Below are positions 1 through 38,463 of a DNA stretch of 38,463 nt, in pieces. Under the pieces are notes generated by a model that was not told the origin of the DNA, searched no databases, and saw only the letters and a program-made list of their open reading frames with translations. The stretch spans positions 1 to 38,463 of the forward strand of contig MGVC01000051.1 in NCBI GenBank assembly GCA_001800285.1, given 5' to 3'. Numbering within the stretch: the stretch's first letter is position 1; every line of letters begins with the position of its first letter. The translations under genes and the position numbers were made by a program. This DNA comes from Elusimicrobia bacterium RIFOXYA2_FULL_39_19. GTDB lineage: Bacteria; Elusimicrobiota; Endomicrobiia; CG1-02-37-114; XYA2-FULL-39-19.

Positions 1-2690
<2,690 letters not shown>

Positions 2691-2836
2691 CATTTCATCC
2701 CGTCTTTTGCAAGACGATTTTAAAAATATTTGACGAATTGACAACATAATTTCAAAGACCACAATTAAAATATTAGCTATATTTTATAATTCATAGTTCA
2801 AGGAAACTACGAACCATTAAACTACAAACTTACTTT

Positions 2837-2912
2837 TGGTGGAGATGAGGGGATTTGAACCCCTGACCTCCCGGGTGCAAACCGGGTGTTCTCCCAGCTA
2901 AACTACATCCCC
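2837..2912 (-). tRNA. tRNA-Ala (anticodon TGC)
   Basis: A full cloverleaf folds on the complement. The acceptor GGGGATG pairs with CATCTCC and includes the G3-U70 alanine identity pair. The D arm is GTTT/GAAC with a normal AGCTGGGA-type loop, the anticodon stem is CCCGG/CCGGG with loop TTTGCAC, and the T arm is AGGGG/CCCCT with loop TTCAAAT. The 3' CCA is encoded (2837-2839). It lies in the 16S-23S spacer, 2 nt after tRNA-Ile, as in many bacterial rrn operons. Confidence 0.97.
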
Positions 2913-2914
2913 CA

Positions 2915-2989
2915 TGGGCCTAAGAGGAATTGCACCTCTCACCTCTCCGTTATCAGCGGAGTGCTCTAAACTAACTGAGCTATAGGCCC
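2915..2989 (-). tRNA. tRNA-Ile (anticodon GAT), with unusual D and T loops
   Basis: The acceptor GGGCCTA pairs perfectly with TAGGCCC. The D stem is GCTC/GAGC and the anticodon stem is CTCCG/CGGAG with loop CTGATAA, giving GAT. The T stem is AGAGG/CCTCT. Two normally invariant features differ. The D loop is AGTTAGTTTA, without the G18-G19 pair, and the T loop is TGCAATT instead of TTCAATT (G at position 55). CCA is not encoded: the discriminator A is followed by TG and then the first base of tRNA-Ala. All stems are intact, so it is probably functional. Confidence 0.92.
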
Positions 2990-3021
2990 TCAAATAGGCC
3001 GTAAACAGAAAAAAAGAACTT

Positions 3022-3084
3022 CCGATAAAAATCGGCTTTTAGGATTTCGCAACCTAACAAGCATTCCAACGAATACTACATTCG
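3022..3084 (-). other. 16S-tRNA spacer: small hairpin and 3' arm of 16S processing stem
   Basis: The spacer between 16S and tRNA-Ile carries a small hairpin (CCGAT, 4-nt loop, ATCGG; 3022-3035). It also carries two blocks (3059-3069 and 3078-3084) complementary, in the transcript, to 4713-4723 and 4697-4703 upstream of the 16S. The 11-bp block is AAGCATTCCAA and the second is ACATTCG, offset by one base. Such a long stem enclosing the pre-16S is the usual RNase III processing substrate. Pairing is seen in the sequence; the processing role is inferred. Confidence 0.7.
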
Positions 3085-3120
3085 AACCGACCTGGAGAAT
3101 TAAACATCTTAAAACTCCTT

Positions 3121-4660
<1,540 letters not shown>

Positions 4661-9476: not shown

Positions 9477-10232
9477 ATGAAAAAAATTGCATTAATCGGC
9501 TGTGGGACAATCGGAAAAGAAATTGCTCTTGCTATTGATAAAAAGAATATCAACGCTACCATAACAGCAATCTATGATGTAATACCTGAGAAAGCCGAAG
9601 ATTTAAAGAATATTCTTAAGAACAATTTTCCCATTATTACAGGAACAATAAAAGAAGCTGTGGGAACATGCGATTTGATAGTTGAATGCGCAAGCCAAAA
9701 CGCAGTAAACGAAATATCAAAAACCGCTTTTCCGTCTAAAAAAGATGTTTTTATACTCAGTGTCGGAGCTTTGATCGCTTATCCACAAATTATGAAATCA
9801 GCTCGAAGATTTAACGTTAAAGTGTTATTCCCTTCAGGGGCAATCGCAGGGCTAGATGCAGTCCGCGCAGCAAAACTAAGCGGAATAGTAAGCTCAACAT
9901 TAACAACAAGAAAACCACCGGTTGCTTTGGGTTTGAATTTAAAAAAAGAAAAGATAATTTTCAGAGGCAGCGCTAAAGATGCCATAAAAAAATTCCCTGC
10001 CAATATTAATGTTGCCGCAGCTTTATCTATTTGCTCCATAGGCCCTGAAAACACAAAGGTAATAATTATTGCAGACCCTAAAATTAAAAGAAACACTCAT
10101 GAAATTGAAGTTATAAGCAAGTCAGGAAGAATACTTGCAAGAACAGAAAATATGCCTTCTCCTGATAATCCAAAAACCAGCTATTTAGCTTCACTTTCAG
10201 CAATTGCCAATTTAAGGGAACTATGTCAATAA
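9477..10232 (+). CDS. nadX: L-aspartate dehydrogenase, NadX family
   Basis: 251 residues. An N-terminal Rossmann nucleotide-binding motif IGCGTIGKEIA (residues 7-17) is followed by the family block SGAIAGLDAVRAAKLSG and TTRKPP. The C-terminal catalytic region includes NVAAALS, RNTHEIEV (candidate catalytic His) and ENMPSPDNPKTSYLASLSAI. It oxidises aspartate to iminoaspartate with NAD(P)+, feeding quinolinate for de novo NAD synthesis, or runs in reverse to make aspartate. RBS AAGGA lies before the ATG. The 3' end overlaps the next gene by 10 nt. Neither nadA nor nadC is nearby. Aspartate also leads to beta-alanine, panC's substrate, via PanD, so the pairing may reflect aspartate metabolism. 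Confidence 0.9.
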   Translation: MKKIALIGCGTIGKEIALAIDKKNINATITAIYDVIPEKAEDLKNILKNNFPIITGTIKEAVGTCDLIVECASQNAVNEISKTAFPSKKDVFILSVGALIAYPQIMKSARRFNVKVLFPSGAIAGLDAVRAAKLSGIVSSTLTTRKPPVALGLNLKKEKIIFRGSAKDAIKKFPANINVAAALSICSIGPENTKVIIIADPKIKRNTHEIEVISKSGRILARTENMPSPDNPKTSYLASLSAIANLRELCQ

Positions 10233-11224
10233 CTAAAGAAGAAAGAATACTTTTTGTTGATGATGATAAAATGCTTCGTGAATTAGCAAAAAAAATTCTT
10301 ACCAGGGAAGGTTACGAAGTACAGACAGCATCAAATGGCGCCGATGCTGTAAATTACCTAAGAAAACTGCCCTTTAATACTGTTGTAACAGATATTCATA
10401 TGCCTATAATGTCCGGCGATGAACTTCTAACAATCATAAAGTCAGATTATCCTGAAACTGAGGTCATAATCATTACTACATTTCCAACCATTGATACCGC
10501 TGTATCAACAATGAAACTCGGTGCCTACGATTATATTATTAAACCTATCAACTTTGACCTTTTATTAACCACCATTGCAAAAGTAAATGAAAGAAAAAAA
10601 CTTTTAAATGAACTAAAAAATGAAAAACAACTCCGTGAAACCATTATGTCTCTTTTTGAAAGCACCCAGGACCTGTTTATTTCTACAATAAAATCTCTGG
10701 CAGAAGTGATAGAAGCCAAGGACGCTTACACTTACGGCCATTGCGAAAGAATCAGGGATAACTCCCTTTTGATAGGAAAAACCTTTAACTTCTCAACCGA
10801 TGAAATGAGAGATCTTGAATACGCAGCTTTACTACATGACGTTGGCAAAATAGCCATCCCAGAAGCTATATTAAATAAACCCGGAATATTAAATGAAACA
10901 GAAAGCGAAATTTTCAAAACTCATACCACCAAAGGCGTCAGTATACTCAGCCATATCAAACAACTAAAAGGCGCGCTTCTTGGAATTAAGTATCATCACG
11001 AAAGGTTTGACGGTAGAGGATATCCTGAAAAACTTAAAGGAACCGAAATACCTCTGGTTGCGAGAATTATTGCAGTTACAGATTCTTTTGATGCCATGAC
11101 TTCAGACAGAGCTTACAGAAAAAGCATTCCGTTAGCCACCGCAAAAGAAATTTTAATTCAGGAAAAAAACAGGCAGTTTGATAGTGAGGTTGTAGACAGG
11201 TTTTTAAAAATACTAACTATTTGA
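10223..11224 (+). CDS. Response regulator with HD-GYP c-di-GMP phosphodiesterase domain
   Basis: 333 residues, RpfG-like. Residues 8-122 form a receiver: acidic pocket DDD (13-15), phospho-acceptor Asp57 (VTDIHMP) and Lys107 (IKP). A helical linker leads to an HD-GYP domain from about residue 150, with HD at 205-206 (LLHDVGKIAIPEAILNKPG), KYHHERFDGRGYP (256-268) and the following TDSFDAMTSDRAYR. All expected metal ligands appear present, so c-di-GMP hydrolysis is plausible. RBS AAGGGA precedes the ATG inside the nadX 3' end. Third gene of the panC operon; its stop overlaps the convergent atpC stop region by 8 bp. No cognate kinase is adjacent, but two histidine kinases occur at 28-38 kb. Confidence 0.93.
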   Translation: MSITKEERILFVDDDKMLRELAKKILTREGYEVQTASNGADAVNYLRKLPFNTVVTDIHMPIMSGDELLTIIKSDYPETEVIIITTFPTIDTAVSTMKLGAYDYIIKPINFDLLLTTIAKVNERKKLLNELKNEKQLRETIMSLFESTQDLFISTIKSLAEVIEAKDAYTYGHCERIRDNSLLIGKTFNFSTDEMRDLEYAALLHDVGKIAIPEAILNKPGILNETESEIFKTHTTKGVSILSHIKQLKGALLGIKYHHERFDGRGYPEKLKGTEIPLVARIIAVTDSFDAMTSDRAYRKSIPLATAKEILIQEKNRQFDSEVVDRFLKILTI

Positions 11225-21075: not shown

Positions 21076-22560
21076 TTAGAAGTGATACCTTATTGAAGCC
21101 CTGGAAATAAGATTATTGAATGCGTATGCTCCGGTTACTATTGCAATGTCAATATCAAAATTTTCTGCAGGGACAATTCCAATACCCATGGTAACTGTTG
21201 CTGGCTGAGTATTCGGGTTGGTAGTAACTTCATTTGAAGTGTCTACATCCGCTTCATCACGTGTTGTACCGCCATCAGCATCAGCAATAGCATCAATATC
21301 ACGGAAATTGTGGTAAAGGGTTTTTGTAGTTGTCTTTGAATAAAAGTCTCTCTGTACACCTATTCTGGTACAGACTTTTGACCAGGTCTGGTGTTCTACT
21401 GCTACTGAAATAGGAATAGTTAAAGTGTTGATTTCTTCTTTTTCATAGCAAAAAGGGCCGGTTAAAGTACCTGCAGCGGCACCACGACCAAGAGACAAAT
21501 CTGTTTCAAGAATTTCGTTTGTACGTGAAGTTGAACGGATACCTGCCGTATAAACAACCTTGAAAGGTTTTGCCGGGGTTGTATGCATAGCAGCATCAAG
21601 TATAATTGATGTTGTTTTATCGTTATACGTAATTTCTTTGTTTAAATCTAAACCAGTGGCTGTTGGAGTATCATCAGCATAAGTTGATCTTTTTGAAGAT
21701 GCATCCGCTGAAACAAAACCAACTGTTGTAAAGAGTTTCTTGCCTCCCATATCCATAATTCCTCTGGCAAGAAGACCAATATTTGCTGAATTATTTGCTT
21801 TAAGTTCATCAGTTGCTGTTTCTTTATCTGTGGTATTGCTTGTTTCAATTCTTGATTGTGTATACTTATTATCTACTTTTGGCATTGCTATAGTTAAAGC
21901 AACATCAAGTTTCTGGAACGGACCAACTTGTTTAAGTAATGCTCCGGCTCCTATCTGTATTTCACTAGTCGCTCTTTTAAGGCTTACTGTACCATCTCCT
22001 AATGTAGAATCAGATCCAAGTCCATCTGGATTCTGATAAGAAGCTGATTGATCACTTGAATTATCAGCCATTGATAAACGGAAACCAAGAGACATATTGC
22101 TGCCCATTTGTAAACCATAAATAATATCTATATTATTGTTTGTGATTGCAAGAGGAGCCATATTGTCAGCAATATTGTTAGCAGTTAAATTTAAAGTTTG
22201 AGGGTTATTAGTAAGAGCTCTTATATTACCTACTGATGTAACATCTGCAAAACCATTTGCTGCGCCTGTATACGGTCTTCCTACAAATACACCTAAATGG
22301 CCTGATGGAATTCTGAAATTCGCACCACCCCATGTGTTTGCATTTAAAACTTCAGCGTATACTGTTTTCCATTCAGTAACCTGTGCAGGGTTCATCCAGA
22401 TGTTAAATGAATTTTCAACCTGGAAGTTCTGCAAACCTAAAGACTGATTCTGCGTGTCTACTACACCTGCTAATCCTTCATCTACTGCTGAACTACAAGA
22501 TGCAAAACTTGAACCTGCGGCTACTGCTAAAACCAAAACTAAACTTAAAAACTTTTTCAT
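21076..22560 (-). CDS. Putative major outer-membrane beta-barrel protein, family not recognised
   Basis: 494 residues. N-terminal signal MKKFLSLVLVLAVAAGSSFA; the following SCSS leaves a lipobox-like FASC, so a lipoprotein cannot be excluded. The body alternates polar and hydrophobic residues, is rich in N, T, S, G and D, and has few Lys clusters, as in porin-type barrels. The last residues SRASIRYHF end in an aromatic, the C-terminal beta-signal used by BAM. NIWMNPAQVTEW near residue 53 resembles the N-terminal part of some uncharacterised barrels. It stands alone between a consensus promoter, a strong AGGAGG RBS (22571-22576) and its own terminator, indicating a highly expressed structural or transport protein. 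Substrate unknown. Confidence 0.75.
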   Translation of the reverse strand: MKKFLSLVLVLAVAAGSSFASCSSAVDEGLAGVVDTQNQSLGLQNFQVENSFNIWMNPAQVTEWKTVYAEVLNANTWGGANFRIPSGHLGVFVGRPYTGAANGFADVTSVGNIRALTNNPQTLNLTANNIADNMAPLAITNNNIDIIYGLQMGSNMSLGFRLSMADNSSDQSASYQNPDGLGSDSTLGDGTVSLKRATSEIQIGAGALLKQVGPFQKLDVALTIAMPKVDNKYTQSRIETSNTTDKETATDELKANNSANIGLLARGIMDMGGKKLFTTVGFVSADASSKRSTYADDTPTATGLDLNKEITYNDKTTSIILDAAMHTTPAKPFKVVYTAGIRSTSRTNEILETDLSLGRGAAAGTLTGPFCYEKEEINTLTIPISVAVEHQTWSKVCTRIGVQRDFYSKTTTKTLYHNFRDIDAIADADGGTTRDEADVDTSNEVTTNPNTQPATVTMGIGIVPAENFDIDIAIVTGAYAFNNLISRASIRYHF

Positions 22561-28275: not shown

Positions 28276-29826
28276 CTATATCGGAAGGGTAAAAATAAAT
28301 CTGCTGCCTTTGCTTAATTCGCTTTCAACCCAGATTTTGCCCCCATGGGCCTCTATAATGTTTTTTGATATGGAAAGTCCTAAACCAATGCCTTTCATAG
28401 CATCCTTCTTTTCAGCAGTTACCTGGAAAAACTTCTTGAAAATATTATCAAGATTTTCTGGCGACACACCAATCCCGGTGTCAATTATAGATATTTTACA
28501 ATGATCTCCTGATTTTAAAGCCTCTACTGTTATCATTCCTGAAATAGGCGTAAATTTTGCGGAATTTCCTATCAAATTTATAAGCACCTGTTTAATTCTG
28601 TCGCTATCAATATTAATTGCCGGTAGTTTTTTTTCAATATTCATCTTCAATTCTATTTTTTTCACATCAAGCACAGGCCTGATTTCATCGCAAGATTCTA
28701 TTATTAACTCTTCTATTGCCACCGGAACTTGTTTTATTTCAAAAGTTCCGGATTCTATTTTAGAAAACTCAAGCAATTCTCTTATTAAATTACCCATTCT
28801 CACACCATTTCTTTGGCACACAGCAAACAGCTTATTCATGTTTACATCCAGTTTGTTTTTAATATCATCTTCCATGATGTCAAACGAATTCACAATAGCT
28901 GTTAGGGGTGTCCTTATTTCATGAACAACATTTGATAAAAATTCGTTTTTTAAAATATCCAGCTCCTTCAATTTATCATAATTGATGCTATCATTTATGA
29001 CTAATGCCGCATTATTAACAAACAACATTGTGAGTTTTAAATCTCTTTCACTGAATTCTTTTATTTTTTCAAATAAATCAATTACCATTATTCCAAGAAC
29101 TTTATCTTTTATTTTCAGCTTGAACACCAGGGAATTTTTATTACCTGTAATTGAATCCTTTATCTGATAATCAAGCATTTTATGGCTTGCGTAATCTATC
29201 ATTAAAGGCGATAATGTTTCAGCCTTAAGCCATACATTGACTGTATCTTCATTCTTAGCTAAAACAGCTTTTAACTCTGAAACATTTTCCGCATTTGATA
29301 TAAATAATTTCATATTATTTTTTTCATACAGAAAAACCGAACCGCTTTCTGAACGTGTTACACCGCAGGATAACTTTACTATCAAATCAACCAGCTGGGT
29401 GAGCCCCATGGTTGAATTCATAGCCTTACTGACTTCGTAAAGAACAATCATTTCTTTGTACCGTTTTCTTTCCAGAGCTCTTTCAATGACAATGGCTATT
29501 TCATCAATATTGAATGGTTTTGTTATATAATCAAAAGCCCCTTTGCGCAAACTATCCATTACTGTTTCCACGGCAACAAAACCCGTTACCATGATAACTT
29601 CAATATCAGAATCAATTTTTTTAACTTCACCTAAAACTGCTATACCATCCATATCAGGCATTTTAATATCAGTTATGACTAAATCTACTTTTTTCTGCTT
29701 TAGCTTTTCAATACCCTCTATGCCTCCGCTTGCTGTATCAACTTCATAGCCCTGCTGGGCAAGCGAAAATTGCAGCATTTCCCTCATTCCTCTTTCATCA
29801 TCAATAATAAGTATTTTCTCTTTCAT
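28276..29826 (-). CDS. Receiver-GAF-histidine kinase hybrid (kinase 1)
   Basis: 516 residues, no membrane helix. The receiver at 1-120 has phospho-acceptor Asp53 (ITDIKMP) and Lys103 (TKPFN). A GAF-like sensor at about 138-282 follows. HisKA has phospho-accepting His302 ([12 protein letters not shown]). HATPase_c has N box [10 protein letters not shown]1 DTGIGV and G2 GIGLGLSI (about 415-516). Receiver-first order implies it is itself controlled by phosphorylation from another kinase. It is the last gene of the six-gene surface/signalling operon and starts 22 nt after the TPR protein. It shares domain order with the kinase at 36782, so the two may be paralogues. Confidence 0.93.
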
Positions 29827-29848
29827 TGTTTAATATCCTCAATGCCGT

Positions 29849-31129
29849 TTAAAACACCCACTCGCCTTTTTCAATTTCTTTATGCAGCAAATCCTTGATC
29901 TTCATAATATATTCTTCCGGAAGGGCGATTTCCGAATCCCTGATTTTTGAACTTAAATACCTCAAGGATTTTATAACTTCTCTTCGTACGCTTTCTTCCT
30001 TGTCTTCATTCATCTTAAACAAAATGTCTATGGTTCCCGGAACAGCTATAACAGCTAATGCTTTAATTATATTTGATCTCACTGAAGGGTTATTATTGCA
30101 CGCCATTTCATTTATAAAATTCATTGCCGCATCAGGAGATTGTTCAAATAAACTGCGGCTTCTTGCGGCAATTCTGTCGCGCAGCATCTCTAAGGAAGGG
30201 TTAGTGTTAAAAATATTAACATTTCCTTCAATGTTTGAGTCAACAGTATATTTTGACAATTTCTCCTGCTCTGCATTAATAAATTTTTCCCTTACTAATT
30301 CCACCTGATTTGCTTCCGGGCCGGCGTTCTTTTTTGCCAACTCGGTATATTTTACTTCTAACTCCTGCCGGATTCTCTTTTCTATTGCCAGTTTTTCAAT
30401 TTCCAGTTCTTTCTGCTGCAATAAAACCTTATCTTTTTCCAGTTTTTCCAACAAAGTCAATTTTTCAGATTCATAAATTATCTGCTGCTGGTCAACTGAC
30501 AAGGTTTTTTTTATCAGCTTTTCCTTTAACGATTTTATCATTAAAAGAAAAACCAGATTCAAAATTAACAAAACAAATGAAAACACAGAAAGGAAAATAA
30601 AATAAATTTTACTGCCAGGCTTTTCCTGTATTATCTTTACAGCAGGTACCGGCTGTTTTTCCAGTAATACTACTTTTGTTTCTGCTGCTTTGACTGCTTC
30701 TGTTGGTTTAATTTCTTCTTTTTGTGTTTTAACCTGGCGTTTTTGTTCGGCAATAATTATAGGGTTCTCTTGTTCAACGGGCTTATTGCTTGAAATCATG
30801 GCATTTGTTACTTCATATAATTCTTTGATTTTCTTATTGCCAGGTTCTAATTTTAACCCCTTTTCAAGAAATTTTATTGCTTTTTTATAATCTCGGGTTA
30901 AATTATAATTTGTGCCGGCGTCTATTATTACCCTAATGAGCAAATCTTTTGCTTTTTGATCATTAGGGTTTATTTCCAGGGCTTTCTCAAAATTTTCAAC
31001 GGCCGAAACATATTCTCCTTTTAAATATTTCTCTGTTCCAGCATTAAAATAGACATCAGTCATTTCCCCGGAAAATACATCTAATGGATTCAACATCAGA
31101 CAAAATAGCAGAAATAAACTTTTCTTCAT
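29849..31129 (-). CDS. TPR, membrane helix, coiled coil and HEAT-like repeat protein
   Basis: 426 residues from the ATG at 31129, preferred over one 39 bp upstream because GAGG lies 9 nt before it and a signal peptide follows at once (MKKSLFLLFCLMLNPLDVFS). Residues 24-105 hold two TPR units (KYLKGEYVSAVENFEKALEI and YKKAIKFLEKGLKLEP). Residues 110-172 are a charged Lys/Pro/Val-rich linker. A membrane helix spans 175-197, a coiled coil 198-280, and the C-terminus (about 310-426) contains helical HEAT-like repeats. TPRs would be periplasmic and coiled coil/HEAT part cytoplasmic, a possible envelope-to-cytoplasm connector. No known family recognised. It sits 10 nt after the PorV-TPR gene. Confidence 0.7.
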   Translation of the reverse strand: MKKSLFLLFCLMLNPLDVFSGEMTDVYFNAGTEKYLKGEYVSAVENFEKALEINPNDQKAKDLLIRVIIDAGTNYNLTRDYKKAIKFLEKGLKLEPGNKKIKELYEVTNAMISSNKPVEQENPIIIAEQKRQVKTQKEEIKPTEAVKAAETKVVLLEKQPVPAVKIIQEKPGSKIYFIFLSVFSFVLLILNLVFLLMIKSLKEKLIKKTLSVDQQQIIYESEKLTLLEKLEKDKVLLQQKELEIEKLAIEKRIRQELEVKYTELAKKNAGPEANQVELVREKFINAEQEKLSKYTVDSNIEGNVNIFNTNPSLEMLRDRIAARSRSLFEQSPDAAMNFINEMACNNNPSVRSNIIKALAVIAVPGTIDILFKMNEDKEESVRREVIKSLRYLSSKIRDSEIALPEEYIMKIKDLLHKEIEKGEWVF

Positions 31130-31139
31130 TTTATTAACC

Positions 31140-32630
31140 TCATTGTTGTGCCGGGCCCATAATGTCAATAACCGCCTGTATTCGTTTAAGAAGTGTTAAG
31201 GCCTCGCTGTTGCTTGAATCTATGCCAAGCAATTCCATAAGTACATTTTTTGCTTCCAGGTATTTTTGCTCTTTAAGCAAAAGCTGTGCTTTTATCAGAT
31301 AAGCCAATATATTTGCGCCTTTATGGTTTTTATCTACAATTATAATCTTTTTAACTGCATCCTGGGCTTCATCAAACCGGTTTTGTTTGTATAAATCCAT
31401 AGCTTCCAGATATTTTTGAGCGGCATAATTTATTTGGCCTTTCTTCTCAATTTCGTTTTCAAGCTCTTTTGCTGAAACGTTGTCTGGATCTTTTTGAAGC
31501 AACTCTTGCAAAAGCTGGTTTGCGGCCGAATAATTTCCGTCTTCATAATTTTCTCTGGCCAACATTAATTTTATATTTATCCATTCTTCAAACTTTAGTT
31601 TCTCCCGCTCTGCCTTCAGGCTTTCTTCTCTTTGATTTCTTTCGTCTAAAAAAGATGCCTGCCTTTTGTATAATTCTTCTGTTTTCTTCTTTAAAAGCAA
31701 TTCCTGTCCTGTGGGGGTATAGCCAAACCTATAGGAAACACTGAATCTGTGTACCATATCTATAGGATGGAAGCTTGCGCTGTAGTCAAAATCCATTTTA
31801 TCTGCGTTTATACCCAGCCCGGCAGAAACCTCCCTGGAATTTATACCCGCTCGTATCCATAATTGTTTTATTATTTTATACTCAACACCCAGGCCCCACC
31901 TTATCAAATTACTTTGGGTTCCCTTGTTAATATTTAGTATTGATACATCTAAAAATGCGTTTAACCGGTCTTTAATAAATTTGTTCTCTATACCGGTTTT
32001 AAGATTTATGCCGGCCGTGTCCGGGCCGATAGTTATAGGGACCATGTTCTGGACTGTCAAACCGTATGAAGTTTCTTCGGTATTGTTACGAATAACGCCA
32101 AAATCCACGCTTTGTCCCTGCCCGAATACAGTATCAATTGCCTGGCTGACAACCTTGAAATTAATTCCAATATAAGTTTTGCTGTTTAACTTTCTTGAAA
32201 AAGTTATAAACGAAGCCGTTTGAGTTTCGTTGAATGTATACCCCCGGCTGTCGCCGACAGAATCTGTTTTCAGGGCATTGCCGGAAATCAGCTGCAAGGA
32301 ACTAAACCCGAACACATAGTCATCATTGAGTGGATGCGCAAAACTGATACAATTTTGCTGTGTTTGTGAAAACAAGACAGCATTTGAAACCGTAAATTCC
32401 GTATAATTTACTTCTGAAATTCCTGCAGGATTCCAGTAAGAACACACAGCCCTGGAATTTTTCGCGGTAAAAGCATTACCCAAAGCAGAGGCCTGCGCAT
32501 TATTGGTATAATCTGATAAATACTCAAAAGGCTGTCCGCCGGTTTGTCCTGCCGGAAAATAATCAAATTCATAACCATGCAGGCTTGAAACCATGAACAA
32601 AGCGCTTGATAAAACTATTAATATTCTCAC
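31140..32630 (-). CDS. PorV/UPF0164-like outer-membrane barrel fused to C-terminal TPRs
   Basis: 496 residues. Signal peptide (1-19), then a barrel region of about 280 residues with the family pattern: ALGNAFTAKNSRAVCSYWNPAGIS near residues 50-73 and repeated amphipathic strands. The last barrel strand ends near residue 305 (FSVSYRFGYTPTGQE). A coiled Lys/Glu-rich linker (310-350) leads to TPRs at 355-490 (NYEDGNYSAANQLLQELL, KYLEAMDLYKQNRFDEAQDA, KYLEAKNVLMELL). PorV proteins shuttle or hold type IX secretion substrates. The TPR tail is an addition, probably periplasmic. It overlaps the preceding receiver gene by 4 nt. Confidence 0.8.
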   Translation of the reverse strand: MRILIVLSSALFMVSSLHGYEFDYFPAGQTGGQPFEYLSDYTNNAQASALGNAFTAKNSRAVCSYWNPAGISEVNYTEFTVSNAVLFSQTQQNCISFAHPLNDDYVFGFSSLQLISGNALKTDSVGDSRGYTFNETQTASFITFSRKLNSKTYIGINFKVVSQAIDTVFGQGQSVDFGVIRNNTEETSYGLTVQNMVPITIGPDTAGINLKTGIENKFIKDRLNAFLDVSILNINKGTQSNLIRWGLGVEYKIIKQLWIRAGINSREVSAGLGINADKMDFDYSASFHPIDMVHRFSVSYRFGYTPTGQELLLKKKTEELYKRQASFLDERNQREESLKAEREKLKFEEWINIKLMLARENYEDGNYSAANQLLQELLQKDPDNVSAKELENEIEKKGQINYAAQKYLEAMDLYKQNRFDEAQDAVKKIIIVDKNHKGANILAYLIKAQLLLKEQKYLEAKNVLMELLGIDSSNSEALTLLKRIQAVIDIMGPAQQ

Positions 32631-32995
32631 TTTTTTATTAATTCTTCAATTTTCTGGATTATGAGTTTTATAGTAACGGGTTTTTCAAAATAGCCCGCCA
32701 CTGAAACACCTTCCTGAATATTCAAAAGCTCTTTTAAATTACCTCTGCCGGTTACTACGATAACCGGTATAAGGGCTGTTTCAGGATTTTCCTTTAATCT
32801 GATATTGACGCTATGGCCGTCTATTTTTGGTATCATAAGGTCCAGCAAAATCAGGTCCGGTTTTTGGGCAACTGATTTTTCCAATGCCTCCTGCCCGTCG
32901 TAAGCGACAGCAATTTCAAAACCTCTTTTTTCCAATGCAATAGAGAGCACTTCCACGATATCTTTGTCATCTTCTACAATTAGTATTTTTGCCAT
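32627..32995 (-). CDS. Single-domain response regulator
   Basis: 122 residues: receiver only. Acidic pocket EDD (8-10), phospho-acceptor Asp52 (ILLDLMIP), a conserved Thr in VTG and Lys in FEKP. No output domain, so it must act by protein contact or as a relay intermediate. It lies 16 nt after the Kelch gene and overlaps the PorV-TPR gene by 4 nt (ATGA), which ties it to the envelope genes. Confidence 0.94.
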   Translation of the reverse strand: MAKILIVEDDKDIVEVLSIALEKRGFEIAVAYDGQEALEKSVAQKPDLILLDLMIPKIDGHSVNIRLKENPETALIPVIVVTGRGNLKELLNIQEGVSVAGYFEKPVTIKLIIQKIEELIKK

Positions 32996-33011
32996 TGCTA
33001 CCTCCGTTTCT

Positions 33012-36000
33012 TTATTTTATAACTCCGATATTAATTGACTCCTGCTGCTTTTCTGAACCATTTGCTGCTTTAATTATACATAAATACATTCCATTTGAAA
33101 CCAGCGCATCATTGCCGTTTTTACCATCCCACTGTATTTCATTTAAACAACCGTTTATTACCCCTGTTGATTTACCATCAAGGCCCGGGTCAAAATGCCA
33201 ATGCCTGACTAATTCGCCTATGAGAGTAAATATTCTTATATCAACAGCGGAATCCTTATTCAACACATATCTTATCTTTATGTTTTCTGTGCCGGCATTA
33301 AATGGATTAGGAAAAACATTTAAATTACCCAGTAGTTTATTTGGAATGTTTACGCCAAAAACAGCAACAGGCTCTAAAAATATAAACTGAGCTGTAATTT
33401 TCTTTTGAGCGTAATCAACGCTTTGCCTGTCTTCTGAAAATTTCCATTTGCTTTTTTCCTCATCCAAGCAGGCAATTCTTAGTTTTTCTACCGGTACATT
33501 TGTGCCATCATAATAATTATCAGAATCATCATCGTTGTATAGGAAAGCCATATTTAATATTATGCCCGCGGGATGCAAAACCGTTTCATTAACGTCCATA
33601 ACAACCGGCCTATAAACATCCTGCGTAATTGTTTTTAAAAGCCTGTCTCCCGCAGTATTGGCTGCCATCTTCTGCATTGAAAGGCTTTCGTTTGCTGCTA
33701 TTTTAGAAATATACAAATACCCGCCGGCAGGAAGCCCCCCCGTTATTTCCCCTGATACCTTTTGATCTTCTGATACTGCCTTACTGCGTTCAAGGACTTT
33801 GAAATTGAATACCTTTTGGGCATATCTCTCGTAGCCCAACTGATCATAAGCCTTAACTTTCCAATAATATTCTTTCCCTTCGCTGATTATGCCTGATGGA
33901 AATAAATAATTGCTTTGATCTGTGTTAATTATCAAAGCAGTGGTAAACACTGAATCGGTGGCCAAATAAATCGTATAATTAATATTATCCCCGCTGTTAG
34001 GATCACCTTTATTTTCCCATGCTAAATATAACTTTAAAACTGATACGTAACATCCGTCTGCCGGATGCGTCAAAGAAAATGCATAAGGGAATTCATTGTT
34101 GTTATCAACAGAAAATTCATTATTTGAAATGTCCATAGATTCATATTTCTCTGAAGTATTATTTTCAGAAGCATTAATTCTTATTAGGTAGTTAGTGCCA
34201 TTTTTAAGTAAAGCGGAATCTATCAAATAAAAGGTAGTATTCCCGGGCAATTCAACCATTTTCAAAAACCCCGCACCATTATTGCTTGACAGATATACAC
34301 TTATAATATGAGTGTCTGCAGAATTAACATCTGTCAATTGCCATGTAACATTCATAGTTCCTGATATGATTTCAAAACCATTTGGGGTTATTAAAGTTAA
34401 TTCGGGAGGCTCATTCGTATTAAAAATGGTAAAAGTTGACAAAGAAACAGCTTCTCCGGGCAACCCGCGCCAATCAGTAACAATTACTTTTATTTTATAA
34501 TTTGTTCCATTAGAAACTTTTCTCGTATTCCAAAAATAACACGTTGTTTTGTCCGGTAATCCCGAAGTAATGAGAACCCCATACGAAACGCCCGAATCCG
34601 TTGATAAGCTGACTGAAACCGATACTGAGTCGCCCTCGTTTTGGTCTTGATAACCCCAGGATATTTCTTTAACTTTTGAAAAAACACCGTAATTATCAGG
34701 CTCAAGCAGATTAACAGAAGGCCTGGCATTAGTAAAAGCCCGGGGGCTTAATGATGATAAGGTAGAAGTGTTGCCGGCCCGGTCCCTTATTTTAACAGCA
34801 AAATAATAAGTTGTTTCATCCTGCAGGTTAAAAACCGAATTTGCTGAAGCTTTGTTTGAAAGAACGCTCAATGGTTGGATAGACTCATTCATTGTATTCT
34901 GCCAGGCAATTTCAGTATTTATCGGCCCGGTACTTGAATACCTTACAATAAAGCTTCCATTTACTATTTCACCGGTATTCCTGTCATCTCCCGGTGATAT
35001 CCAGCTCAAATCAATACTGCCGTTTTCATTGCCTGTACGGGCTGAAAGCTCCGTTATATTGTTTGGCGGCGTGGTATCTACAGTAAATGAATAGGCGTCT
35101 GACCAGGCGCTGGTGCTATTGTCCTGAGAATAAATTCTGTAATACCATAACCCCTCGTTTAAATTTGACGGGCACAACTGGGAGACTACAGCGGTGGAAT
35201 TTTCAGCTATAAAATTCTGGTCAATATATGGTGTTGAAAATGAAGAGTTATTAGAAATCTGCATCCTGTATGTCAGTGGATAGTCATGATCGTCATCAAC
35301 ACCTTTTTCCCAAACAAAAACAGGCCTTTGCGCATTAATTCTGTCATAATTTTCAGGATAAACCAGTTGGGGAGGCCGGGGCCTTATGTTATAAACAATT
35401 TTCAATTCCGGCAATTCAGGTGTTTTTGGCAAAATATAAGAAAGCATTTCACCTTTAACTCTCAAATAATTCCTATCCCAGTGGCCATTCCAGATATTAT
35501 GAGGGCCTGCACCGTTATAATACGAAGAAACGGACCCGTCCGGGCCCCGGAATGCATCAAATGATATACCGTCATCTGAATGAGCTGTCTGAAACCTGAT
35601 AGTAGTTGAAGAAGAATATATCCCTGCAAAATTTGTCAGTATTTTTCTCCAAACCTTGGAAGTAAACACGGCGGTGGTCACAGTCACGGTAAATGTGCCG
35701 GAAGATTTTAAAATATATTTAAAAGTTTCATTACTGGCATTGCCTGTATCTCCGCCAAATATAAACGGCAAATAGCCGTTATAGACAAACCCGGCAGATT
35801 TGTCTCTGGCGGAAGGATTTACCGGATAATCCGCAGTCAGCCATTCATTGTTTTCATAGCTGTACAGATAGGTGAAATACTCATAAATGGACGAGCTGCC
35901 GCCAAAAAGAATACATTTATCAATGGAAGACATATATTCAAACACAAAATCAGAAACGGGGCTGGGCCTTTCAACAGAAGGCTGCGGTATATTGCTCCAG

Positions 36001-36785
36001 TTAGCCAAACCAAATGAATAAACCCATAAATCACTGGTTTTCCCTCCGACCGTATTGGATCTTCCCCCAAACACAATAAGCACGTTGCTGTTTGAATCAT
36101 AGCACATACCATGCGCATACCTTGCTGAGGGCGTAGATGCGGAAATTATGTAAGACCAGGAACCGTTTGTTACATCATAAACCCAAAAATCTCCAAAAAG
36201 TTGGGGCCCCGAAACACCGCCAAATAAATAAACTTTATTAGTGGACTGTACATAACTCATTGAAAAGTATGCCCTTGACGAAGGTTCTATGGCAAAATTC
36301 TGCCTGGCCCATACATTTGTATTCCTGTTGTATATCCAGGTATCATTAAAAGTATCTCCGGTATTATTCTGGCCCCCAAAAAATAAATATTGGCCCGAAC
36401 CCATACTTACAACCTTATGGCCATACCGGACACCAGTGCCCATGGCCCCTACCTGTGACCATTTATTTCCAACCACCTCATATATCCAGAAATCCTGAAG
36501 TGCATTATTCCCTGCATCTCTGCCGCCGAAAAGCATTGCGCTGGAACCTGAAACATCATAAGCCAGCGCAGCTGAATGCCTGGCAGAAGGATAGGTTACA
36601 CCCGTCTCATCCTGCCAATTTCTTTGAATTACTAATTTTGCATTTTCACCGGTACCATTTATATCTATATTTTCTCTTTCAATTGCCATAAAATCACTAT
36701 CGGTAGTATACGTTTTCGTACTCCATGCATAAGCAGTAATATCAATAAACATAACAACGATAATTAAAGCAAATACTTTTTTCAT
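33012..36785 (-). CDS. Large secreted Kelch-propeller, Fn3/Ig-repeat protein with FlgD-like C-terminal domain
   Basis: 1257 residues. Signal peptide (1-20). Six Kelch motifs (each with an FGG core: MLFGG, FFGG, LFGG, VFGG, LFGG, IFGG) between about 60 and 345, enough for one six-bladed propeller. A sandwich-like segment (about 360-450) follows. Then come four to five Fn3/Ig-like units, one beginning PPNNITELSA, others around RPSVNLLEP and NEPPELTLITP. The last 90 residues match the FlgD-like/type IX sorting Ig domain: VFPNPFN, IRIFTLIGELV, IQWDGKNGND and SNGMYLCIIK. It is presumably exported to the surface; propeller and Ig units suggest binding of a glycan or protein. It overlaps the upstream kinase by 4 nt. 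Confidence 0.87.
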   Translation of the reverse strand: MKKVFALIIVVMFIDITAYAWSTKTYTTDSDFMAIERENIDINGTGENAKLVIQRNWQDETGVTYPSARHSAALAYDVSGSSAMLFGGRDAGNNALQDFWIYEVVGNKWSQVGAMGTGVRYGHKVVSMGSGQYLFFGGQNNTGDTFNDTWIYNRNTNVWARQNFAIEPSSRAYFSMSYVQSTNKVYLFGGVSGPQLFGDFWVYDVTNGSWSYIISASTPSARYAHGMCYDSNSNVLIVFGGRSNTVGGKTSDLWVYSFGLANWSNIPQPSVERPSPVSDFVFEYMSSIDKCILFGGSSSIYEYFTYLYSYENNEWLTADYPVNPSARDKSAGFVYNGYLPFIFGGDTGNASNETFKYILKSSGTFTVTVTTAVFTSKVWRKILTNFAGIYSSSTTIRFQTAHSDDGISFDAFRGPDGSVSSYYNGAGPHNIWNGHWDRNYLRVKGEMLSYILPKTPELPELKIVYNIRPRPPQLVYPENYDRINAQRPVFVWEKGVDDDHDYPLTYRMQISNNSSFSTPYIDQNFIAENSTAVVSQLCPSNLNEGLWYYRIYSQDNSTSAWSDAYSFTVDTTPPNNITELSARTGNENGSIDLSWISPGDDRNTGEIVNGSFIVRYSSTGPINTEIAWQNTMNESIQPLSVLSNKASANSVFNLQDETTYYFAVKIRDRAGNTSTLSSLSPRAFTNARPSVNLLEPDNYGVFSKVKEISWGYQDQNEGDSVSVSVSLSTDSGVSYGVLITSGLPDKTTCYFWNTRKVSNGTNYKIKVIVTDWRGLPGEAVSLSTFTIFNTNEPPELTLITPNGFEIISGTMNVTWQLTDVNSADTHIISVYLSSNNGAGFLKMVELPGNTTFYLIDSALLKNGTNYLIRINASENNTSEKYESMDISNNEFSVDNNNEFPYAFSLTHPADGCYVSVLKLYLAWENKGDPNSGDNINYTIYLATDSVFTTALIINTDQSNYLFPSGIISEGKEYYWKVKAYDQLGYERYAQKVFNFKVLERSKAVSEDQKVSGEITGGLPAGGYLYISKIAANESLSMQKMAANTAGDRLLKTITQDVYRPVVMDVNETVLHPAGIILNMAFLYNDDDSDNYYDGTNVPVEKLRIACLDEEKSKWKFSEDRQSVDYAQKKITAQFIFLEPVAVFGVNIPNKLLGNLNVFPNPFNAGTENIKIRYVLNKDSAVDIRIFTLIGELVRHWHFDPGLDGKSTGVINGCLNEIQWDGKNGNDALVSNGMYLCIIKAANGSEKQQESINIGVIK

Positions 36786-38347
36786 TTCTTTTTCCGTAAA
36801 GACACAAAAAACTTTGACCCCGAACCTGCCTCTGACTCAACCCAGATTTTACCATTGTGCGCTTCTATTATATCCTTTGATATAGTCAACCCCAGCCCTA
36901 CGCCCCCTGCATTCCTGGTTGATGAGCCGTCGGCCTGATAAAACCTGTTAAAAATCCTTTTTTTCTCAAAATCCGAAATACCCACTCCGTTATCTTTTAC
37001 TTGAATTACAATATTTTCATCTTGTTCATAAACCGAAATCCTGAGCTTCCCGGATTCTGGCGTAAATTTACATGCATTGGAAACAAGATTTGTTATCACC
37101 TGCTTTATCCTGTAAGGGTCAATATTGATGTCCGGAATGTTTTCCGGATAATCTGTTTTAAGCTGTATTCTCTTGGCGCTTATTTCACCCGAAAGGTCTG
37201 CCACTGATTCTTTTACACAGGCAACGATATTTGAGTTTACAAAACGATATTTTAACTGGACCGAATCCATTTTTGAAAAATCAAGCAAATCCACTACAAG
37301 CCTGTCTAACCTTTTGGCGTTGCGCACAATCAGGTCTATAAGCCTCGTTTCACTCTGATCATGATCTGCTTCCTTAATAATTTCTATGGCTCCCATCATA
37401 GACATGAGAGGAGTACGCAGTTCGTGGCTTACATTTCCTAAAAATTCAAATTTAATTTTTTCCATTTCGTTTGATTTTTTCAAAATCTCTATTTGTATCA
37501 TAATTGCTGATATTTGCGATACAAAAAACTCCATTGAACGTTTTTCATTTTCTGTAAATCTATACGGAAATGAACTGAACCTGTTTAGCGTAAGCACACC
37601 AATCACCTTGCCATAAGCATATAAAGGAATTATCATGGAAGAAATAATTTCATCCCGTTTAATGTGGGCTTTAAATTCCTCATACTCTTTTAACCCGCTA
37701 TGCAGAATAATTGCCTTGCCTTCTGAGCAAACTCTTCCGGAGATCCTTTCACCCATAGGGATTTTTCTGTCTATATCATCCCTGAGGCCTAAAGATGCAA
37801 CCATTTCCAACACATTTCCCTTTTCATTCAATAAAAGAATGGACCCGCTATTTGAACTGGTTATTTCACAGGCAGTTTCCAGAATTAATAGGGGAAATTT
37901 ATTAATATCAGGAGCCTCCGGGCCGCAGCTTAACAGCTCATACAGCGGAATACACTGTTTGAGAATGTTTAACTCAAGATTTTTTTTTGACTCACTCAGG
38001 CATCTCTCAACAATCATTTCAAGTTCATCAACATTAAACGGCTTAGTAACATAATTGTACGCACCCATCTTCATTGTTTCAACGGCATCTTCTATTTTTC
38101 CGTAGCCAGTCATCATTATCACCGGCAGAGCCAAAAATCTTATTTTGATTTCTTTAAGCAATTCAACACCATCCATTTCGGGCATGCGCATATCAGAAAT
38201 AACCAAATCATACAAAGAAGTATTCAGTTTTTCTAAAGCATTCAACCCATTGGAGGCAAAATCCAACTCATATTTATCTTTAAAAATCTTAGATAATAAC
38301 ATACGCTGTTCAGAATTGTCTTCCACAATTAGGACTCTTTCTTTCAT
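36782..38347 (-). CDS. Receiver-GAF-histidine kinase hybrid (kinase 2)
   Basis: 521 residues from the ATG at 38347, which has GGAG five bases upstream; a start 33 bp earlier has none. Receiver 1-120 with Asp52 (ISDMRMP) and Lys102 (TKPFN). GAF domain about 140-288 (GSILLLNEKGNVLEMVAS, then IPLYAYGKVIGVLTL). HisKA His308 (NVSHELRTPL). HATPase_c with NLVSNACKF, DNGVGIS and GVGLGLTIS. No membrane helix, so a cytoplasmic kinase. First gene of the six-gene operon, overlapping the Kelch gene by 4 nt. Its order of domains mirrors kinase 1 at 28276. Confidence 0.94.
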   Translation of the reverse strand: MKERVLIVEDNSEQRMLLSKIFKDKYELDFASNGLNALEKLNTSLYDLVISDMRMPEMDGVELLKEIKIRFLALPVIMMTGYGKIEDAVETMKMGAYNYVTKPFNVDELEMIVERCLSESKKNLELNILKQCIPLYELLSCGPEAPDINKFPLLILETACEITSSNSGSILLLNEKGNVLEMVASLGLRDDIDRKIPMGERISGRVCSEGKAIILHSGLKEYEEFKAHIKRDEIISSMIIPLYAYGKVIGVLTLNRFSSFPYRFTENEKRSMEFFVSQISAIMIQIEILKKSNEMEKIKFEFLGNVSHELRTPLMSMMGAIEIIKEADHDQSETRLIDLIVRNAKRLDRLVVDLLDFSKMDSVQLKYRFVNSNIVACVKESVADLSGEISAKRIQLKTDYPENIPDINIDPYRIKQVITNLVSNACKFTPESGKLRISVYEQDENIVIQVKDNGVGISDFEKKRIFNRFYQADGSSTRNAGGVGLGLTISKDIIEAHNGKIWVESEAGSGSKFFVSLRKKK

Positions 38348-38370
38348 ACTGTCTCCTGTTTTGTCACAAC

Positions 38371-38423
38371 GTAATGTCAAAAATCTTTTGACATTATTAT
38401 GCTTTTTTATATAATCTATTGTC
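38371..38423 (-). promoter_or_regulatory. Candidate promoter with 10-bp inverted repeat at the start site
   Basis: On the complement, TCGACA (38418-38423), 18 bp and CATAAT (38394-38399). The predicted start, near 38387, falls inside a perfect inverted repeat AATGTCAAAA-N3-TTTTGACATT (38371-38393). This fits an operator or a 5' UTR hairpin for the six-gene operon beginning at 38347. The bases up to 38463 contain no recognisable gene. Confidence 0.5.
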
Positions 38424-38463
38424 GATACTTTGCTAAAGTTACTGTTTTATTCGTGTCCTCCCC

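Follow-up and report, generated by a model that had tools for sequence, protein, structure and literature searches.

A conserved gene core that may link two-component signalling to a large surface protein across the cell envelope of Elusimicrobiota

The sequences and gene neighbourhoods described here indicate that the real unit within a six-gene operon of an Elusimicrobia genome is a four-gene core, comprising a Kelch protein with a C-terminal domain (CTD), a lone receiver, a TPR-tailed PorV-type barrel and a TPR-TM-HEAT connector, together with a kinase as input. We propose, tentatively and with a little less than even confidence, that this core forms a conserved module spanning the envelope, through which two-component signalling acts on a single large surface protein from the inside out. 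To our knowledge, few routes are known by which the bacterial cytoplasm directly instructs an outer-membrane surface protein, and the recurrence of the module in two phyla suggests an undescribed mode of cell-surface control or sensing. If the proposed wiring is true, a receiver would be connected to a T9SS-like surface protein by a direct protein line, in deep-branching uncultured phyla, and the receiver-HEAT pair would be a new type of two-component output.

The window, i.e. the whole stretch of DNA analysed (38,463 nucleotides), is the entire contig C51 of a 3.09-Mb genome. Six co-directional genes had been recognized in the initial annotation, and all six ORFs indeed lie on the minus strand between 28276 and 38347, in the following order from upstream to downstream:

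HK1, 36782-38347, minus strand: soluble hybrid kinase with an N-terminal receiver, REC-GAF-HisKA-HATPase (Pfam)
Kelch protein (core 1), 33012-36785, minus strand: predicted secreted surface protein with a Kelch propeller, Ig/Fn3-like domains and a FlgD/T9SS-like CTD (Pfam/NCBIfam)
REC (core 2), 32627-32995, minus strand: lone receiver of 122 aa, of its own subfamily (Pfam, alignments)
PorV-TPR (core 3), 31140-32630, minus strand: predicted outer-membrane barrel of 14 strands (PorV/FadL type), plus a 58-residue helix and a TPR tail in the periplasm
TPR-HEAT connector (core 4), 29849-31129, minus strand: predicted signal/anchor helix, periplasmic TPR, linker, one TM with a long cytoplasmic helix, and C-terminal HEAT (Pfam, orthologues, AlphaFold2)
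HK2, 28276-29826, minus strand: REC-GAF-HisKA-HATPase kinase at the 3' end of the operon (Pfam)

The intergenic spacing of -4 to +22 nt reported earlier was reproduced from the ORF coordinates: HK1/Kelch and REC/PorV-TPR each overlap by 4 nt, and gaps of 16, 10 and 22 nt separate Kelch from REC, PorV-TPR from TPR-HEAT (taking ATG 31129, not TTG 31168, as the start) and TPR-HEAT from HK2, respectively. HK1 most likely starts at ATG 38347 instead of TTG 38380, where the longest frame begins. From this spacing we infer that the six genes probably constitute a single transcription unit. The genes gatC/gatA follow ~0.1 kb downstream in the same direction, and no terminator-like site was found on the minus strand between them and the operon. 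At the other end, the window stops 116 bases upstream of HK1, within a repeat, and genes farther upstream are therefore out of sight.

Searches with Pfam and NCBIfam bore out the domain content that had been assigned, including three receiver-bearing proteins (HK1, HK2 and REC), and none of the six proteins has a DNA-binding output domain (Pfam), as also noted before. The Kelch protein has 1257 aa, of which the last ~110 (33012-33344) constitute the CTD; this region matches FlgD_ig and Por_Secre_tail, both below cut-offs (Pfam/NCBIfam), and a profile made from it gave weak matches to the PorU CTD and FlgD. Orthologues of the Kelch protein share 31-42% identity over the full length. In the lone receiver, the phospho-acceptor D52 as well as T82 and K105 are conserved in alignments. 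Conserved patches are also present in its alpha4 stretch (GKGxLKELL), in HEAT and at the C-terminal W.

PorV-TPR matched PorV_fam with an E-value of 3.8e-24 and 85.9 bits (curated cut-off 90) in addition to TPR, and its alignment profile matched the solved PorV structure 6h3i_F (E 1.6e-6). The AlphaFold2 model (mean pLDDT 83.7) consists of 14 strands, the 58-residue helix and a TPR domain, and the best PDB matches in Foldseek were TodX/FadL barrels, in keeping with a 14-strand barrel of the FadL type. Such barrels have both termini on the periplasmic side, and the TPR tail is thus expected in the periplasm. The connector matched TPR and HEAT_2 in Pfam, and its single TM is consistent both with hydrophobicity in the orthologues and with the AlphaFold2 model, where a signal/anchor helix and TPR are followed by a disordered 57-residue linker, a TM running into a long helix (186-281) and HEAT; the individual domains of this model are confident, their mutual arrangement is not (pTM 0.36). 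Since lysines follow the TM, the positive-inside rule favours a cytoplasmic HEAT domain.

Conservation of the neighbours in related genomes, which the initial annotation had put forward as a test of its operon, was found to be strong, as the core is kept across the phylum and recurs in another one (Firestonebacteria/FCPU426). The unit itself had to be redrawn: instead of all six genes, what is conserved is the four-gene core with the upstream kinase, while the place of HK2 is not conserved and is held in relatives by unrelated PAS/GAF/Cache kinases or by none. Orthologues of TPR-HEAT were found in 13 of 60 relatives and in 34 of the 341 genomes of the phylum, and profiles of the four core proteins, applied around these orthologues, gave a complete core in 25 Elusimicrobiota genomes, a number that includes the window and one genome in which the Kelch gene is truncated by a contig end. 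Contig ends interrupt the cluster in G002, G004, G218 and G337, with the visible genes in place; G230, G235 and G237 have a TPR-HEAT match, and their surroundings were left out of the core count. The Kelch profile likewise retrieved Elusimicrobia/Endomicrobia MAGs. A scan of genome contigs for close relatives with PorV-TPR as the sole query gave no match; the Kelch alignment succeeded. According to the TPR-HEAT ortholog search, the module is absent from the small genomes of family f4 of the same class. In the second phylum, two Firestonebacteria-like genomes have the complete core, and FCPU426-like genomes have a version with other surface proteins in the place of Kelch. Four gene orders were seen:

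Kelch-REC-PorV-TPRHEAT: the class of the window, families f27/f29
REC-Kelch-PorV-TPRHEAT: families f16-f18 and f22
REC-PorV-TPRHEAT-Kelch: Firestonebacteria-like, L063 and L177
surface protein-PorV-TPRHEAT-REC: FCPU426-like, L163, L179, L180 and L181

As membership is kept over two phyla despite these four orders, a joint function of the core is strongly indicated. The lone receiver represents a separate subfamily: with the receiver profile, the Elusimicrobiota partner receivers reach 134-204 bits and most other nearby receivers only ~50-110. A kinase with an N-terminal receiver is found upstream of the core in most genomes, as REC-GAF-HK like HK1 in the class of the window and as REC-HK of 370-392 aa in other groups. 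Together with the Pfam assignment, this similar placement suggests that HK1 is the upstream input kinase of the module. In several relatives within the class, an extra small receiver separates HK1 from Kelch; it is missing from the window.

The most informative variants are found in family f10 (G038 and G058), where three loci encode the HEAT protein without adjacent Kelch and PorV. At these loci the protein has no periplasmic TPR, and its TM-HEAT part still adjoins a gene of the lone-receiver subfamily, which argues that TPR is paired with PorV and HEAT with the receiver. At two of the loci, from two genera (L036:8959-15348 and L038:7435-15168), REC and a short TM-HEAT are embedded in an ABC-transporter operon, flanked by the substrate-binding protein on one side and the permeases on the other; the transporter is assigned as Opp-type by Pfam at L036 and by matching layout at L038, and the arrangement suggests receiver control of the importer. 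Flagellar or pilus genes were considered as the identity of these neighbours and rejected on the Pfam result. At a fourth f10 locus (L040), TPR is retained and a PorV-like gene lies nearby on the opposite strand. These natural deletions are the best evidence for the wiring proposed here. The pattern also bears on a further reading, in which a PorV-cargo pair would stand next to two-component genes by coincidence and share no function with them: the genome abounds in PorV-CTD pairs and two-component genes are common near the module loci, but orthologous cores stand together in two phyla and four gene orders, and TPR is absent where PorV is absent, so that chance adjacency is highly improbable.

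Some copies in the second phylum (L164, L178, L182 and L183) comprise the CTD protein, PorV and TPR-TM-HEAT, with no adjacent receiver; a receiver nearby is thus not always required. In a second Firestonebacteria copy (L164:6616-7813), one of those with no adjacent receiver, TPR-TM and HEAT are in separate overlapping frames, reflecting either a split gene or a frameshift.

The description of the locus as 'type IX-like' is backed by the PorV-type barrel fold, by a divergent SprA and by numerous PorV-CTD pairs in the genome. The SprA/Sov homologue (1757 aa; L150:9313-14586 on contig C81 of the same genome, G000) is encoded outside the operon, beside lptF/lptG and a TraF_2-like gene, and matched TIGR04189 with an E-value of 5.4e-25 and 86.9 bits, below the curated cut-off of 200. 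SprA-matching stretches were detected in 19 of the 21 genomes of the class that were searched. GldL, GldM and C25 gave no match in 21 genomes, in searches that lacked a working positive control. The genome has 33 PorV-like places and 71 CTD matches; for 20 of the 33 PorV genes, a CTD end on the same strand is found no more than 1.1 kb upstream, where 0.4 would be expected. It is thus likely that the surface proteome is large and served by dedicated barrels; Kelch/PorV would be one cargo-barrel pair among many and is the only one found in the genome with a TPR-HEAT connector. These observations place a divergent SprA and, probably, a large PorV/CTD surface proteome in Elusimicrobiota; the T9SS literature compared here concerns the Bacteroidota system. 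The initial annotation had further suggested a phosphorelay that senses or controls envelope secretion or a surface structure. A link to one surface protein, and its direction, are proposed below; control of secretion itself is not supported, since SprA is encoded elsewhere and also occurs in relatives without the operon. For its part, the module is not claimed to be a T9SS core machine.

In the mechanism we favour, the surface protein would leave the cell via the divergent SprA and, through its CTD, be retained on the PorV-type barrel, whose TPR tail would contact the periplasmic TPR of the inner-membrane connector. The kinases would phosphorylate the lone receiver, which would then bind the cytoplasmic HEAT domain of the connector, and this binding would alter the connector and thereby how the surface protein is displayed, where it sits or how active it is. 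The output of the module would accordingly be a protein contact instead of transcription. All contacts, like the direction of signalling, are predicted from the genes and models. That the core is a trans-envelope module at all is supported by the recurrence of the complete set in 25 Elusimicrobiota and two Firestonebacteria-like genomes, and of the FCPU426-like version, in four orders, by conservation of the phospho-acceptor residues, by the frequent PorV-CTD pairing in the genome (20/33 vs 0.4 expected) and by the modelled topology of barrel, tail and connector, which would suit an envelope-spanning line. Inside-out control is preferred because a DNA-binding output is absent among the six proteins, because the receiver-HEAT unit persists at loci without the surface part, and because EpsW-EpsZ offers a precedent for a lone receiver acting by contact (PMC12802240). 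The core copies of the second phylum that have no adjacent receiver count against this mechanism, and so would kinase outputs that lie elsewhere in the genome. The detailed wiring is possible though open to considerable doubt: binding of the phosphorylated receiver to HEAT would be relayed by a periplasmic TPR-TPR contact to the PorV barrel, which would hold or let go of the surface protein, with receiver and membrane-HEAT serving as a general, reusable two-component output that also acts on ABC transporters.

The same anatomy and gene linkage would also fit the main rival, an outside-in sensor, in which Kelch binds a ligand or surface, PorV-TPR and the connector pass the change to HEAT, and HEAT either frees or binds the lone receiver or else gates the neighbouring kinases, with the final output elsewhere in the genome. 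The full-length conservation of Kelch would be expected of a receptor for a fixed ligand, and many soluble receiver-bearing kinases are encoded nearby; however, the receiver-HEAT pair is kept at loci without the surface part and a transcriptional output is absent from the cluster, and we regard the sensor as somewhat unlikely. Ranked third is a tether or positioning device, where the surface protein is tied to the inner membrane by way of PorV-TPR and the connector, and the receiver only sets the location of the assembly in the cell. It would account for core copies without an adjacent receiver, and it has a parallel in PorE-PorP-PG1035, where a barrel bearing a CTD protein likewise has a TPR partner (PMC9143113). 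It does not readily account for the conserved phosphorylation residues and kinase linkage of the receiver, or for receiver-HEAT in an ABC-transporter operon without an outer-membrane part, which leaves the tether clearly unlikely.

The nearest known arrangements to the inside-out module proposed here are PorE-PorP-PG1035 of Porphyromonas gingivalis and SprF-SprB of Flavobacterium johnsoniae, where a CTD surface protein likewise sits on its own outer-membrane barrel (PMC9143113, PMC12618676). Of the two, only the PorE case has a periplasmic TPR partner, as is predicted for the module, and there PorE links PorP, together with its cargo, to the cell wall (PMC9143113). PorE ends in a peptidoglycan-binding domain, whereas the TPR partner of the module is predicted to span the inner membrane and to end in a cytoplasmic HEAT domain; the module differs from both systems in its paired receiver and in a PorV-type barrel with its own TPR tail. 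A PorE-like anchor was rejected as its identity, as TPR-TM-HEAT has neither an OmpA-type peptidoglycan-binding domain nor a periplasmic beta-propeller (Pfam, AlphaFold2 model). With the T9SS translocon SprA-PorV and SprE/PorW (PMC10994853) it shares the PorV-type barrel, putative CTD cargo and TPR proteins, in a genome with a divergent SprA; by contrast, SprA lies outside the operon, and the connector carries HEAT and has no demonstrated lipoprotein role.

Two-component control is tied to the type IX system in PorY-PorX-SigP as well, where PorXY regulates gene expression through a sigma factor (PMC4800418). The receiver of the module, in contrast, consists of a single domain, with no output domain attached, and has a membrane HEAT protein as its linked partner; an identity with PorXY-SigP was discarded, as REC is single-domain (122 aa) and a sigma factor is absent among the six proteins (Pfam). 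In Myxococcus xanthus, the phosphorylated lone receiver EpsW binds the inner-membrane protein EpsZ and exerts post-translational control of surface delivery (PMC12802240). The module, as proposed from its genes, would resemble EpsW-EpsZ in a lone receiver acting post-translationally by contact (PMC12802240), although the target there is a sugar transferase, unconnected with any outer-membrane barrel or surface protein. In the open literature searched on Elusimicrobiota T9SS, PorV/SprA, Kelch, HEAT-receiver pairs and gliding, a coverage that mostly leaves out subscription papers, no description of the gene set came up.

The repeat in which the window ends occurs eight times in the genome, each time at the end of a contig (the others on C3, C15, C35, C48, C50, C59 and C70):

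Dispersed repeat, 38370-38463, minus strand: near-perfect palindrome at 38373-38395, directly upstream of HK1

The repeat is at least 40-94 bp long and terminates in the palindrome AATGTCAAAAGATTTTTGACATT plus ACG. At all eight loci the palindrome lies 25-26 nt before a start codon in the same orientation (the ATG on C59 was chosen by eye), and the genes that follow encode HK1, a ribH-like protein, lipoproteins and others. A 12/12 sigma-70 promoter-like site on the plus strand (38388-38415) points away from HK1, and a weaker one on the minus strand (38425-38396) points towards it. The palindrome was set aside as an HK1 operator, since it belongs to the repeat found at eight contig ends; the repeat could be a dispersed promoter/operator cassette, a mobile-element end or an invertible promoter.

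Elsewhere in the window, a 494-aa ORF (21076-22560) has no Pfam match at E 1e-5, and an rRNA operon occupies 1-4659 on the minus strand, with 16S (3123-4659), two tRNAs and a 23S gene truncated by the contig end. The gene at 10223-11224 encodes a REC-HD-GYP-type response regulator (receiver and HD_5), a possible c-di-GMP phosphodiesterase.
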